NCBI RefSeq assembly: GCF_009939295.1
Contig: NZ_WVIC01000007.1
Span: 1 to 64,000, forward strand
Origin: Petrachloros mirabilis ULC683
Lineage (GTDB): Bacteria; Cyanobacteriota; Cyanobacteriia; Thermosynechococcales; Thermosynechococcaceae
Direction: 5' to 3'
Length of the DNA stretch: 64,000 nucleotides
Both the position numbers and the translations under genes were made by a program. The notes beneath the pieces are model-generated. The model saw only the letters and a list, made by a program, of their open reading frames with translations. It made no database searches and was not told the origin of the DNA. Positions within the stretch are counted from its first letter, which is position 1; each line of letters begins with the position of its first letter. Below, piece after piece: positions 727 through 59,211 of the stretch.

Positions 727-780
727 TATCCCAGTTTTGCAAGTTGTCCCTCATCCCTCAGCCCCTTCTCCCAAAAAGGG
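727..780. repeat. Left part of a dispersed repeat related to 1331-1395
   Basis: This stretch and 1331-1395 share a direct repeat built on GGGTGYATCCCAGTTTTGCAA followed by a CTCATCCC..CCCCTT segment. A family 2 element is inserted at its right edge (781-956). The outer repeat appears to resume after 967 with GGGAGAAGGGGCTGGGGGA, the mirror image of CAGCCCCTTCTCCC at 759-772. It is probably the older host element. Confidence 0.5.
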
Positions 781-956
781 CTACCGTGTACACACAAGTC
801 TTGAAAAGACTCAAAATCTTTGCGCTCGCCCCCCTAGCCCCCCAAGTTTGGGGGGAATATAGTCCCAATTTTTGTTGATCTCCCCCCAAACTTGGGGGGT
901 CGGGGGGGCTAATGCAGGGTGGAATGGGTTTACCTAGAGATGTGTGTACACCGTAG
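781..956. mobile_element. Family 2 MITE-like element, 11-bp duplication CCCAAAAAGGG
   Basis: The 176-bp element has terminal inverted repeats CTACCGTGTACACACA (left) and CTACGGTGTACACACA (right, reverse complement). It is flanked by an exact 11-bp direct repeat CCCAAAAAGGG at 770-780 and 957-967. The core holds two C-tract/G-tract hairpins, the first being CCCCCCAAGTTTGGGGGG. There is no coding capacity, so any transposase must act in trans. Confidence 0.8.
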
Positions 957-1330
957 CCCAAAAAGGGAGAAGGGGCTGGGGGATTAAAATAGACTTGTAA
1001 TTAGAGTTTTCCAAATGTTAATCCTCAGATAAATTTGATTTTTCATAGATAAACTATGGGCTAATTAAAGTTATCTGATGAAGCTTAGGACAAGAATATC
1101 AGAAAATCATCAATAAAAAGTTCGATAAGGTTCGGAAAAAGTTCCTCGAAAGGCACTTCTACACTTGCGATGATAAGTAAGGCTTATCGCCATCGCCAGA
1201 ACGGTTAGGCCGTGATCTTCAGCCTTGGAGCAATGGCTATACCGCCACTTCCCTGTCCCAGTTTTGACACTGGAAGAGGCTGATGTCCCGGGCATAATGG
1301 CCATCGCTATATATACGACGATGGGTTCAG

Positions 1331-1434: not shown

Positions 1435-4400
1435 TTAGAGCAAAACTCTTTCCTCTATTAGGTCGGGGCATATTTCCAGCGCCCCTAACTGCTTGAGATT
1501 GGCTTTCTGCACAGTTGTTAGACCCCTAACATCCTCAATAATGGTTTCTTCATAGGGTCGGCGTTGATGCAAAACTCCTGTACATTCCTCGGTTTTCAAG
1601 TTCCACAGCCGAATGGTTTCATCTTGGCTGCAACTGATCAAAGTTTTCCCATCAGCACTGTAGGTGACAGAACGAACCCATCGCGTATGACCCGACAGCA
1701 CACTGAGACACTCAAGAGTCTGACAATCCCACACTTTGACAACATTGTCTGCTCCGCAACTGGCAAAAGTTTGCCCATCTGGGGCAAAAAGAACCGATAG
1801 TGCAGGGCCATGATGTCCAGAAAAGGCAGTGTAACTTTTCTCGCTTGAATTGAGCGCCCACACCTTTAGATAGCCATCGGCACTGCCACTCACCAATGTT
1901 TGTCGGTCAACGCTAATATCACAGCACCGAATCCATTGAGATGGATCGCTCAATGTTTGCAGACACTGAGCTGTATTGACATCCCAAATTTTGAGCGTTC
2001 CATCTTGGCTGCCGCTGATCAGCAAGTCACCATTCTGACTCTGTGCCAACGCCCAAACTCCTCCTGTATGGCCAGCGCAGGTGCGTCGGCAGGTTCCATT
2101 GCGCAGATTCCAGAACCTAAGGGTTCCATCAAGGCTGCAACTGTAGAGGGTTAAGCAGTCTGGACTGAAACAAATCGAAAAAATAGGACCAGAATGTCCG
2201 TGCAGTGTCTTGATCAAACGACCTGTTGCCACCTCCCATAGCTTGATGGAGCGATCTTCGCTGCCACTGGCTAGAGTCAGTCCATCAGGGCTAAAGGCAA
2301 TCGCCCAAACCCAACTGGTGTGGCTCTTCAAAGATCGCAGCAACTGCCTACTGCCAATATCCCAAAGACCAATGGTTCCATCTTGGTTGCCACTTGCCAA
2401 ACAAGGGCTTGTAGGATGACTGGCAACACACCATACGCCATTACTGTGGCCTTGCAGGGTTTTAAGGCAGCGATCAGATTGACTATCCCATAACCGTACC
2501 GATTGATCTTCACTGCCGCTCGCCAGGAGACTTCCATCTGGACTAAAGGCAACGGCAGAAATCCAGCTTCCATGCCCGCGCAGCACTTGTCGGCATATTC
2601 CTTGCTCGACTTGCCAGAGTCGAATCGTGCGGTCATCACTGCCACTGGCCAGGGTTTTGCCGTCTGGACTAAAGGCGACAGACCGCACAAGGGCTAAGTG
2701 TCCCTTGATAGATTGCAGCAGAGTATAAGACCGAATGTCCCATAGGTGAATGGTGCGATCGCCGCTGCCACAGGCCAACAAATTTCCCTGGGGACTGAAG
2801 GCGATTGACCAAATGGGCTGATTCTGAGCAGACAGGACGCCCACGTTTTTACCCGACTCCGGATTCCAGAGGCGAATCGTGCCATCCACACTGCCACTGG
2901 CCAGCAGGTGATCTAATCGACCCGGAACCCATGCCGCAAATGCCACAGAGCGAACTTCATCTCCATGCCCAGGGAGAGCGTAGCGCAATTGACCCGTCTC
3001 AACCTCCCAGATGCGAACCAGTCGATCTTCGCTTCCGGTTGCCAGCCAACGACCGCTGGGACTAAAGGCAACTGAGAACACCCGATCTGTGTACCCCGTA
3101 AAGTGCTGAATACACTCCCCAGTGTGGACATCCCATAGGTAAACACCTCGATTGGCACAGCTTGCAACATAGCGACCGTCTGGGCTAAAGGCAACTGACC
3201 AAATCCACCCTTCATCCACTCGACCTGAAAATAATAGTTTTCCTTCAGCAACCCGCCAAATATGTAGTTCATGATTGACATCCCCTGTGGCCAAATATTC
3301 ACCGTCTGGACTAAAGGCAACCGTTAAAATTTGGCCACAGGCTTGCTTGAAAACAGAATGGGAAAGATCAGCAGATTGAAAGTTACAACGATGCAAATTT
3401 ACCGATGTTAAGTGAGCCTGCCAAACCGTTAGGTACGAGAAATCCCAACCTTCCCAGCAATTTGATAACTGGGCGAGAAAGTTAAGAATGTTACCCGCGA
3501 CATAACTAGTAATCGAGGCAGGTTGATGCCGAAGCATCGCCAAAACAACCTGAAAAGAATGGACTAGACCCGGCTGCCCCAATCGACACAGCAGTCGATC
3601 TAGCAAGGGTTGCAAAATATATTGACGCTGTATTTCTCGAATGTAATCTTTGGCCTGAGCCTTCATGAGTGCATGTGTTTTGAGCAAACCAAGATCCAAG
3701 TATTTAATCTGAGTTGATACAGATAATACATCAGATTCTATATGACTTTGTAAACTTAAAAAGGTGTTAACAGTCTCCTCAATTAACTGTTCAGTCATAA
3801 ATTCCATGACAACAGGCTGGAGCGTGAAGCGAGGACTATCTTTTTCCTTCAACGCAGGCATTTTTTCGATTAAAGATCGCCGCTCTAAAGCTTCAAGTGC
3901 CTCAAATGCATTACCAGGAGATTGAGGTAAAATCAGTTGAGATTGTAGCTCAGCTAGAGTAACCGGCTCACGCTCAATAGCCAACCAATACATCACCTGC
4001 TGCTCAAGGTCTGAAAGGCGACAAATTTGGCTCGATAAAAGTTCCCGAATATCTCCGAATACGGCTGACCCAGTCTGGAGTGTATCTAGAAAAGCTCGAA
4101 GGTACCCCCCAAAGAAGTCATGAATTGCAGAGGCGACAATTTTGAGTGCCAGGGGGTTGCCAGCGTAGCACCTGCAAAGGTTCTTCCATTCGGAAGTAGA
4201 GCCATAAAAGTTTCCCTTTGCCTTTAAGACTGCTTGTACACAGTTTTCCGGTAGTCCTGTCAGGGAAAGTGCGCGAATCGGCAAACCAATCCCTGCTTCT
4301 GCTACAAACCCCTTAGGCTTTTCACGACTGGTTATCAGGACTGTGCTGCGATGAGGAACTTCACCCATTCGTTTTAGGAACTGGCCATAACCGTCGTACC

Positions 4401-17648: not shown

Positions 17649-17817
17649 TTGACTGACAAAACTTCAATTTGGGGGGTTCTGACTATCTCACAGTCCCCCA
17701 GAATGGGGGATGTAGGGGGCGAATGCAGGGTGAAATCGTTTTTCTCAGACTTGTGTTTACACCGAAGCCCCTTGGGAGAGGGGTTGGGGGTGAGAGCGTA
17801 CAACTTTTGTCAGTCAA
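17649..17817. mobile_element. Composite repeat with 13-bp terminal inverted repeats
   Basis: TTGACTGACAAAA at 17649-17661 and its exact inverse at 17805-17817 bound about 170 bp. Inside is a family 2 element that keeps only its right end (TGTTTACACCGAAG near 17754-17767), followed by a CTTGGGAGAGGGGTTGGGGG segment of the family 3 type. It looks like one MITE nested in another with a deletion. Confidence 0.55.
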
Positions 17818-28739: not shown

Positions 28740-28927
28740 CTACGGTGTACACACATTTCTATGTCAAACCCAAAATGCTGCATTCGCCCCCCTAGCCCCC
28801 CCTCGCGCAGCGTGCCCGAAGGGCGTAATTTTTGAGGGAACCAGATTGTCAAAGTCCCCCAGAATGGGGGATTTAGGGGGCTAGACAGGCTGGATAATGC
28901 AACTGAAAACTTGTCTGTACAGGATAG
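28740..28927. mobile_element. Family 2 MITE with nested small dispersed repeat
   Basis: Left end CTACGGTGTACACACA; right end degenerate (TTGTCTGTACAGGATAG). Flanks GCTAAGCTC and GTTAGGCTC agree at 7 of 9 positions, so the copy is older. The small dispersed repeat at 28802-28829 interrupts the first C-tract hairpin. Confidence 0.7.
28802..28829 (-). repeat. 28-bp small dispersed repeat (SDR) nested in a MITE
   Basis: Read on the minus strand it is TTACGCCC-TTC-GGG then CACGC-TGC-GCGAGG, two adjacent mini-hairpins. This is the only copy whose two triloops differ (TTC and TGC). Confidence 0.75.
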
Positions 28928-40895: not shown

Positions 40896-40973
40896 CACAT
40901 AGATTGAAGTCCGACCTCTATTTGATTGGGTCGTATTCGCAATCTCTCACCCCAACCCCTCTCCCAGCTTGGG

Positions 40974-41174
40974 CTACTGTGTACACACAAGTCTGAGAAA
41001 AACGATTTCACCCTGCATTCGCCCCCTACATCCCCCATTCTGGGGGACTGTGAGATATTCAGAACCCCCCAAATTACGCCCTTCGGGCACGCTTCGCGAG
41101 GGGGGGCAGGGGGGCGAGTGTAAGGATGTTAGAGGCTTTTTAATCATCTTCTTAAATTTGTGTGTACACTGCAG
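40974..41174. mobile_element. Family 2 MITE with exact 11-bp duplication CCCAGCTTGGG
   Basis: Ends CTACTGTGTACACACA and CTGCAGTGTACACACA (inverse). Duplications at 40963-40973 and 41175-41185. An SDR is nested at 41074-41101. The empty site exists at 46235-46245 in the inverted outer copy. Confidence 0.9.
41074..41101 (+). repeat. 28-bp small dispersed repeat (SDR)
   Basis: TTACGCCC-TTC-GGG followed by CACGC-TTC-GCGAGG; both loops are TTC. Inserted in the second G/C hairpin of the family 2 element. Confidence 0.8.
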
Positions 41175-41230
41175 CCCAGCTTGGGAGCGAGGCTAAGACA
41201 TGGGTTGGGTTTCCCTTCTCCCCTTTTGGC

Positions 41231-41404
41231 CTACGGTGTACACACATCTCTAGTTCTCCGTGTTCAACACTGCATTAGCCCCCCCAACCCCCCAAAATTG
41301 GGGGGAGAAATCCGAAAGTTAGAACTAGTTCCCCCCAGAATTGGGGGGCTAGGGGGGCGAGTGCAAAGATTTTGAATTTTTCAAGACTTATGTATACACG
41401 GTAG
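41231..41404. mobile_element. Family 2 MITE with near-exact 11-bp duplication
   Basis: Ends CTACGGTGTACACACA and CTACCGTGTATACATA (inverse). Flanks CCCCTTTTGGC (41220-41230) and CCCCATTTGGC (41405-41415), one mismatch. This copy lacks the SDR and shows the unbroken CCCCCCAGAATTGGGGGG hairpin. Confidence 0.85.
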
Positions 41405-41457
41405 CCCCATTTGGCAGAAGGGGCTAGGGGATGAGGGCAAGTCTTCTTAGGTCTATT

Positions 41458-41490
41458 AGGTTGAGGTCATGCCTCAACCTTTTTGCTTTT
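41458..41490 (+). terminator. 9-bp hairpin followed by a T-rich tract
   Basis: AGGTTGAGG / CCTCAACCT with a 5-nt loop, then TTTTTGCTTTT. It forms the right end of the compound repeat, so it may be a repeat-borne terminator rather than that of a gene. Confidence 0.55.
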
Positions 41491-46023: not shown

Positions 46024-46302
46024 GGGGATGCGACCTCAACCTGATAGACCTGAGAAGACTCGCCCCCCTAGCCCCCCAATTCTGGGGGGAAATAGCTCTA
46101 ACTTTCGGATTTCTCCCCCCAATTTTGGGGGGTTGGGGGGTCTAATGCAGTGTTGAACACGGAGAACTAGAGATGTGTGTACACCGTAGGCCAAAAGGGG
46201 AGAGGGGGAACCCAACCCATGTCTTAGCCCCGCTCCCAAGCTGGGAGAGGGGTTGGGGCGAGGACATTGCGAGTAGAACCCCATCAAATAGGGGTCGCAC
46301 CC
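46024..46302. mobile_element. Inverted copy of the compound repeat at 40905-41485
   Basis: It contains a family 2 element (46060-46189) in inverse orientation whose one end is lost, and the unoccupied site CCCAAGCTGGG at 46235-46245. Compared with 41231-41450, about 88 bp is missing between two GCGAGT/GCAAGT-type short repeats, including one terminal repeat. Confidence 0.8.
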
Positions 46303-46393
46303 ATTGGAGGTGAGGCAGCTAGCCAGCAACGAAGAACTTCTTCTTTTCTGCATCCAGGAGATAATGGAGGCTGAATTGACTCCAAGGACTGCT

Positions 46394-56829: not shown

Positions 56830-57049
56830 GGGTTTTGCAGCTTTTCTGGGGTGAATGCTTCGTTAATTCAATCCCGTTATATTGCCCCTTAGCATACAAC
56901 CTACAGGCTTCAATCGCAGTGCAACGGATGCAGATGATTTTAACAATCGCAGCGAGGTTGAGGAAACAGATTCCCATCTCCGGTCATTTGGATTGAAACT
57001 GAGGTATGCGCAACTCGGCTGAGAAGAGGGATAGACCCCCCTCAAAGCC

Positions 57050-57237
57050 CTACGGTGTACACACACCTCTGAGTCGAGCCCACAATGCTGCATTCGCCCC
57101 CCTAACCCCCCAATTCTGGGGGGAATCAGATCGTCAAAGTCCCCCAGAATTACGCCCTACGGGCACGCTACGCGAGGAGGATTTAGGAGTCTAGACAGGC
57201 TGGACAACAGAACCGAGGACTTGTGTGTACACCGTAG
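57050..57237. mobile_element. Family 2 MITE with 10-bp duplication and nested SDR
   Basis: Ends CTACGGTGTACACACA both sides. CCTCAAAGCC at 57040-57049 and 57238-57247. SDR at 57150-57177. Together with 56830-57049 it fills the gap between SepF-like and DUF3370 genes; nothing else is seen there. Confidence 0.85.
57150..57177 (+). repeat. 28-bp small dispersed repeat (SDR)
   Basis: TTACGCCC-TAC-GGG followed by CACGC-TAC-GCGAGG; both triloops are TAC, unlike any other copy here. Confidence 0.8.
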
Positions 57238-57268
57238 CCTCAAAGCCGAACTAAACGCTCCTAGGAAA

Positions 57269-58633: not shown

Positions 58634-58947
58634 AGGGAATTATTACGCCAGTCTGAGACAGAGATTAAGACCACTTCTCAAGCCTCAGGCTAGGCCATGA
58701 GGATCGGTCATGGGGGCAGATAGGCAGTTCAGACGGCCAAAAGCAACTATCCGTTCCTACCCGCTTGCCAGTGCATTATAGAGGCCACATCCTGCATCCC
58801 ACAATGCAATTCCGATCTCCCCAACTCAGAGGATCCCGTAGCCAAGACTACTAAGCCCGAGAGATTCAGCCTTTAAGCTAATGCCGTGGGAGTTGTTCTT
58901 CCCACGCCCAACATTCCGAGCAAAGGTATGGACTCCCCTATCCTCTC

Positions 58948-59146
58948 CTATGGTGTACACACAAGTCTGGGAAAACTATTCCACCCTGCATTCGCCCCCT
59001 ACATCCCCCATTCTGGGGGACTGTGAGATATTCAGAACCCCCCAAATTACGCCCTTCGGGCACGCTTCGCGAGGGGGGGCAGGGGGGCGAGTGCAAGGAT
59101 GTTGGAGGATTGTAGTCATCCATTTGAATTTGTGTGTACACCGTAG
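58948..59146. mobile_element. Family 2 MITE with near-exact 11-bp duplication and nested SDR
   Basis: Ends CTATGGTGTACACACA and CTACGGTGTACACACA (inverse). Flanks CCTATCCTCTC (58937-58947) and CCTATCCCCTC (59147-59157). SDR at 59047-59074. It is closely related to 40974-41174. The 58634-58947 stretch shows no gene. Confidence 0.85.
59047..59074 (+). repeat. 28-bp small dispersed repeat (SDR)
   Basis: Identical to the copy at 41074-41101; both triloops TTC. Confidence 0.8.
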
Positions 59147-59211
59147 CCTATCCCCTCTGAGCACCCCAACATTGGTGTTTGCCCGACCCTACCCTAACGG
59201 AGCGCATTCCT

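Follow-up and report, generated by a model that had tools for sequence, protein, structure and literature searches.

MITE copies in the window and across the genome

The window (the whole 64-kb stretch of DNA analysed here) contains 14 matches to CTACGGTGTACACACA with no more than three mismatches, versus 0.15 expected. One of these matches, at 3086-3101, lies within an ORF and is probably due to chance. The elements bounded by this sequence are 174-201 bp long and include five well-paired copies, at 781-956, 40974-41174, 41231-41404, 57050-57237 and 58948-59146, together with truncated and degenerate copies (Table 1). The initial annotation had identified these ends correctly, but the true terminal repeat extends over 19 bp (CTACYGTGTACACACAAGT). 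It had also placed the source transposase outside the window, and we found no transposase-type ORF between MITE ends in the window.

Table 1. Positions of the MITE copies and of the empty site in the window.
Feature	Position	Strand	Basis
MITE 781-956 with 11-bp target duplication CCCAAAAAGGG (770-780, 957-967)	770..967	+	end matches, flanks
Truncated MITE; one end (17752-17767) and subterminal sequence retained	about 17666..17767	-	
Degenerate MITE; left end exact, right end diverged, duplication weakly visible (7/9)	28740..28927	+	
MITE 40974-41174, filled site; 11-bp duplication CCCAGCTTGGG (40963-40973, 41175-41185)	40963..41185	+	
MITE 41231-41404; 11-bp duplication CCCCTTTTGGC / CCCCATTTGGC, one mismatch	41220..41415	+	
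Partial copy keeping only the left end of the 41231-41404 MITE, inside the inverted repeated block	46063..46189	-	
Empty site; CCCAGCTTGGG present once, on the minus strand of the paralogous block, without insert	46235..46245	-	
MITE 57050-57237; clean 10-bp duplication CCTCAAAGCC, non-palindromic site	57040..57247	+	
MITE 58948-59146; 11-bp duplication CCTATCCTCTC / CCTATCCCCTC, one mismatch	58937..59157	+	

Throughout the 4.12-Mb, 79-contig genome of Petrachloros mirabilis ULC683, CTACGGTGTACACACA was found 267 times with no more than two mismatches, whereas the reversed pattern was not found at all, and the number of MITE copies is roughly a hundred or more. These elements are 124-362 bp long (mostly 173-201 bp), have inverted ends of 16-19 bp and carry no transposase gene. 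They have the characters expected of MITEs: they are short and gene-less, with terminal inverted repeats, they duplicate their target on insertion, and they share ends and duplication with autonomous ISs (L048/L069, ISSysp3 and others), found in relatives rather than in the same genome. Two larger elements with the same ends, L044:441-777 (337 bp) and L145:28-389 (362 bp), have intact duplications of 11 and 8 bp, respectively, and are possibly nested MITEs or mobile cassettes. In one relative (G043), locus L060 (C15:210029-210324) consists of one left end followed by five identical right ends in tandem, spaced by exactly 70 bp; this array is a MITE that was either amplified in tandem or targeted repeatedly. 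No plasmid records with DNA similar to the MITE were found.

Target duplications and an empty paralogous site

The 11-mers reported by the initial annotation were all recovered: CCCAAAAAGGG and CCCAGCTTGGG are doubled around 781-956 and 40974-41174, respectively, and 11-mers with one mismatch surround 41231-41404 and 58948-59146. The two outer inverted blocks (40905-41485 and 46024-46302), one of which contains the insertion at 40974-41174, form a composite intergenic repeat. In reverse complement, 46060-46310 contains CCCAGCTTGGG only once (reading CCCAAGCTGGG on the plus strand), with no insert, as expected of the empty site previously proposed in this copy. After removal of the 201-bp element and one 11-mer from the 41-kb block, 187 of the 199 aligned core positions (94%) match the 46-kb block, and the difference between the filled and empty sites is the element plus exactly 11 bp. 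This empty paralogous site dates the 40974-41174 insertion. In the 46-kb copy, the second MITE (41231-41404) has been deprived of its right half and therefore retains only its left end.

We scored the flanks of 81 distinct paired copies sampled from the genome, counting a duplication as supported if the flank-match score exceeded the cut-off. Matching flanks were obtained for 53 copies, with no clear duplication in the remaining 28. When left flanks were paired with the right flanks of other copies (200 shuffles), a mean of 2.2 and a maximum of seven pairs were supported, versus 53 for the real pairs, consistent with the earlier view of a transposable family with genuine target duplications. 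By contrast, the proposal that a fixed duplication of 11 bp defines the family could not be maintained: 10 bp (22 copies) was as frequent as 11 bp (23 copies), the other copies having duplications of 8, 9, 12 or 13 bp. Even in the window, 11 bp is not invariant, because the 57050-57237 copy has a clean 10-bp duplication. Similar 10-bp direct duplications were found elsewhere in ordinary sequence, for example CATTCAGTTG, CGCTTATTGC and GGTTTTAACT.

Palindromic targets and duplication length

The empty sites rebuilt for 51 copies were palindromic about the centre of the duplication, with 56% complementary pairs at the centre versus 25% in the background, and 22 of the 51 were at least 70% complementary (0.3% of the background). 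Palindromic sites accounted for 18 of the 23 duplications of 11 bp, but for only one of the 22 duplications of 10 bp (Fisher P=3.8e-7). Insertion thus appears to favour the centre of host palindromes, where it generates an 11-bp duplication, and otherwise generates a duplication of 10 bp. Part of the palindrome excess may reflect the filling of intergenic space by such repeats. The usual target palindrome, CCTCTCCC-N5-GGGAGAGG, has an odd loop, and symmetric joining points therefore necessarily give an odd spacing. We infer a default stagger of 10, shifted to 11 by the symmetry of the target.

The arms of the CCTCTCCC-N5-GGGAGAGG repeats, in which many of the insertions sit, would match on their own, but it is scarcely credible that the 11-bp matches are an artefact of these host repeats with no duplication made, an explanation already envisaged in the initial annotation, because 22 copies have clean 10-bp direct duplications, all but one of them at sites that are not strongly palindromic; moreover, the palindrome loops (AAAAA or AGAGC, for example) match in direct rather than inverted orientation, shuffled flank pairs drawn from the same repeats gave 2.2 supported pairs rather than 53, and the filled and empty paralogous sites differ by 11 bp in addition to the element.

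Partner IS elements in other cyanobacteria

In the P. mirabilis genome, we detected no intact transposase bounded by these ends, and for this reason we only infer that the MITEs were mobilised in trans. Several candidates were considered. The PF01609 transposases of this genome (C7:87327 and C10:97993) are not bounded by these ends. Some contigs end about 40 bp into an element and might have belonged to full-length IS copies, but the subterminal sequence there is of the MITE type. At C19:91502-91696 (L068/L159), only 69 residues from the C-terminus of an IS4-type transposase remain (NF033590, E=2.8e-10), also without these ends. In G043, the genes lying between end pairs 1.4-1.9 kb apart are unrelated and include no transposase. 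The helper of the P. mirabilis copies may have been lost, may lie in an assembly gap or may have been supplied by a transient element.

When 58 relatives were searched for the end pattern, an element of 1490 bp was found in G019 (L048:664-2153); its ends are identical to those of the MITE, it is flanked by a 10-bp duplication (CCATGCTTGG) and it contains a single long frame of 462 amino acids. This frame encodes P0001, identified as an IS4-type transposase by its match to NCBIfam NF033590 (E=9.7e-105) and related to the transposase of Tn5 (E=9.5e-34). P0001 has D77, D182 and E323, in keeping with the DDE pattern D(60-110)D(100-150)E of the IS4 family, and the YREK motif YKFRWRIERLFAQLK; Y-2-R-3-E-6-K was present in nearly all the partner IS copies. 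Homologues of P0001 with 47-83% identity were found in other cyanobacteria, within elements with the same ends. One of them, ISSysp3, is carried by plasmid pAQ7 of Picosynechococcus sp. PCC 7002 (1485 bp, ends CTACTGTGTACACACAAGT, 10-bp duplication CCCTCTAAAT), and its product is named “IS4-like element ISSysp3 family transposase” in RefSeq. An IS4-like candidate source of the kind suggested at the outset, with the same ends and duplications of about 10-12 bp, was thus found in relatives.

These partner ISs (1.4-1.7 kb) combine the 19-bp ends CTACYGTGTACACACAAGT with a Tn5-like IS4-type transposase. Most are 1478-1490 bp long, within the 1350-1550 bp of the IS50 subgroup, with a few of up to 1659 bp containing extra sequence. 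The IS50 subgroup has the end consensus CW------Y---CA-A--W- and duplications of 8-9 bp (PMC2266710); CTACYGTGTACACACAAGT fits this consensus at 7/7 conserved positions, but the partner duplications range from 9 to 12 bp and are 10-11 bp in most copies, consistent with the approximately 10 bp of the IS4 family rather than with the values for the subgroup. The MITEs and partner ISs have the terminal 19 or so bases in common, but their interiors do not match, so the MITEs did not arise simply through loss of the interior of a sampled IS. In L069, L070 and L071, the right terminal repeat encodes the C-terminus of the transposase (..L[MV]CT[PR] stop), and the end sequence is therefore constrained both as a DNA signal and as protein. 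Four IS copies, L183 and L184 (Nostocales cyanobacterium HT-58-2), L190 and L193, are flanked on both sides by palindrome arms of one kind, but the loops differ between the two flanks, a pattern resembling recombination between copies inserted into separate palindromes. The flanks of L082 are perfect inverted copies of each other.

A transposase gene in two frames

The long frame of the partner ISs has no good start codon, and is overlapped by a short upstream frame, offset by one base, that starts with M/V-[DE]NPI.IHA and ends with FGDPRLVKRG. Two-frame loci joined at AAAAGGGGG were L069-L089, L172-L198, L202, L203, L211, L248-L249 and L251-L254. The arrangement, with the start frame followed by the -1 frame, was found in 31/31 cyanobacterial loci of the named set, and in nine other loci, from Bradyrhizobium, Caulobacterales, Beijerinckia, Acetobacteraceae, Magnetospirillum, Caulobacteraceae, Sediminibacterium, Opitutaceae and Propionivibrio. 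Single-frame relatives were also identified (L209, L217, L219, L228, L240 and L245). The absence of a frameshift has been named a hallmark of the IS4 family (“IS4 family goes genomic”, PMC2266710); the cyanobacterial partner loci depart from this single-ORF organisation, whereas L209 and L217, both from Bacteroidetes, display it.

AAAAGGG does not vary among 34 distinct cyanobacterial sequences, despite the availability of AAG and CGN as synonymous codons. In ISSysp3, the site lies at AAAAAAGGGGG, a synonymous form of which would be AAGCGTGGC. Variability by frame-0 codon position was 0.47, 0.24 and 1.30 bits before the site, peaking at the third position, and 0.46, 1.38 and 0.67 bits after it, the peak being at the second frame-0 position, which is the third position of the -1 frame. 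Several Nostocales copies have a -1-frame stop codon directly before the site, and ribosomes therefore cannot arrive in the -1 frame. In L071, where the frame changes at 1529, fusion of the two frames gives a 474-aa protein, extends the Tn5 alignment to residue 18 and raises the PF14706 Tnp_DNA_bind score to 33.4 bits (cut-off 24), versus 14.4 for the -1 frame alone. We detected no stimulating RNA structure downstream of the site (mean z of 0.09 over 34 sequences). The slip is not assignable to one codon, because most copies would allow re-pairing of GGG, which is impossible in L211, a copy in which A-AAA can re-pair instead.

A conserved slippery site does not, on its own, distinguish ribosomal from transcriptional slippage. 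A-rich frame-change sites in transposases have often been ascribed to transcriptional realignment (PMC3711429), and two relatives, L201 and L204, have A7-A8 runs, but slippage of RNA polymerase on the A/G run is nonetheless unlikely, as most of the sites consist only of A4-A6 followed by G5 (A5G3 in L211), which is short for such slippage. Given these short runs, ribosomal -1 frameshifting appears to be the likeliest mechanism. We consider it quite improbable that there is no frameshift and that translation simply starts in the -1 frame downstream of AAAAGGGGG, this sequence acting as a Shine-Dalgarno sequence. AGGGGG does look like a ribosome-binding site, and the RefSeq CDS of ISSysp3, which starts downstream of the frame-change site and lacks the frame-0 N-terminus, begins at a methionine in such a position. 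However, this methionine is replaced by Ile, Leu or another residue in L069, L070, L072, L083, L172 and L252, and the CDS of Nostoc C057 is annotated from ATT. The upstream frame has its own start and is under constraint at the protein level (M/V-[DE]NPI.IHA...FGDPRL.KRG), the single-frame Bacteroidetes relatives read straight through the same region, and the end-binding domain is incomplete without the part encoded by the upstream frame.

In the published papers searched, we found no report of frameshifting in the IS4 family and no mention of ISSysp3. The unassigned DDE_Tnp_1 frame-change clusters of GeneTack could include the ISSysp3-like group.

Probable mobilisation of the MITEs in trans and its implications

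From the sequence comparisons, the MITEs are very probably a non-autonomous family moved in trans by ISSysp3-like, Tn5-related IS4-type transposases, the partner gene being encoded in two frames. The target of IS231A is GGG-N5-CCC, resembling the CCC-N5-GGG sites of the MITEs. The duplications of 10-12 bp (IS231) and 10-13 bp (IS4 subgroup) fit better than the 8-9 bp of IS50 (PMC2266710), but a helper from such another IS group with duplications of about 11 bp, for example IS231 or IS4 proper, is very improbable: IS231 ends begin with CAT and IS4 ends differ (PMC2266710), the MITE ends match IS50 at every conserved position, and complete cyanobacterial elements have identical 19-bp ends, a Tn5-like transposase and the same 10-11-bp duplications.

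Under mobilisation by ISSysp3-like transposases, the enzyme would bind the shared ends and excise the MITE, and the MITE 3' ends would be joined to target strands about one helical turn apart; a symmetric target would set the two joining points symmetrically, giving a stagger of 11. The short first frame would carry the first half of the end-binding domain and the -1 frame the rest, joined at AAAAGGGGG, and programmed -1 ribosomal frameshifting, as the most likely mechanism, would keep the transposase scarce. We also consider it likely that, in a broad clade of Tn5-like ISs spanning all the cyanobacterial copies seen, several alphaproteobacterial copies and a small number from elsewhere, production of the transposase depends entirely on a programmed -1 frame change at AAAAGGGGG, within the domain that binds the ends, and that palindrome symmetry sets the 10/11-bp spacing of strand transfer.

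The MITE family itself is ordinary; the interest lies in the putative recoding and in the putative dependence of the stagger on palindromes. An abundant class of intergenic repeats in cyanobacteria can be assigned to a defined transposase, rendering its movement testable, and a Tn5-related group departs from the family definition twice, in gene organisation and in duplication length. The choice between 10 and 11 bp provides a natural handle on target accommodation by a Tn5-like strand-transfer complex. About 35-45 residues, among them half of the end-binding domain, are missing from the annotated transposases of this group; the RefSeq-length ISSysp3 protein, which lacks this N-terminus, would therefore probably be inactive if expressed.

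Comparison with known systems

ISSysp3 resembles the window MITEs in its 19-bp ends and 10-bp target duplication, and the G019 partner in its transposase (59% identity) and two-frame arrangement, but it is autonomous and 1485 bp long, whereas the window elements carry no gene. The transposases of the partner ISs are homologous to that of IS50/Tn5 along almost their entire length (E about 1e-33 to 1e-40), and the ends of L087 (CTGCCGCTTATACACATCT), a diverged relative, resemble the Tn5 mosaic end. IS50/Tn5 differs in having an 8-9-bp duplication and one frame, versus 10-11 bp, two frames and a preference for palindromes in the partner group. Judging from its sequences, this group is a variant of IS4/IS50 with the same chemistry, fold and end signature, but with 10-11-bp duplications and a split gene. 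Like the MITEs, the REP-targeting ISs (ISPsy8, ISPa11, ISPpu9/10 and ISRm19/22) insert into repeated extragenic palindromes (PMC1525189); they are other elements in other hosts, and a duplication length varying with target symmetry, together with a MITE family, is a feature of the system described here. The MITEs of Anabaena sp. 90 are alike by description, being short, gene-less elements with terminal inverted repeats, present in many copies with no matching IS in the same genome (PMC3542288), but the MITEs studied here could be traced to a parent IS group present in other genomes.
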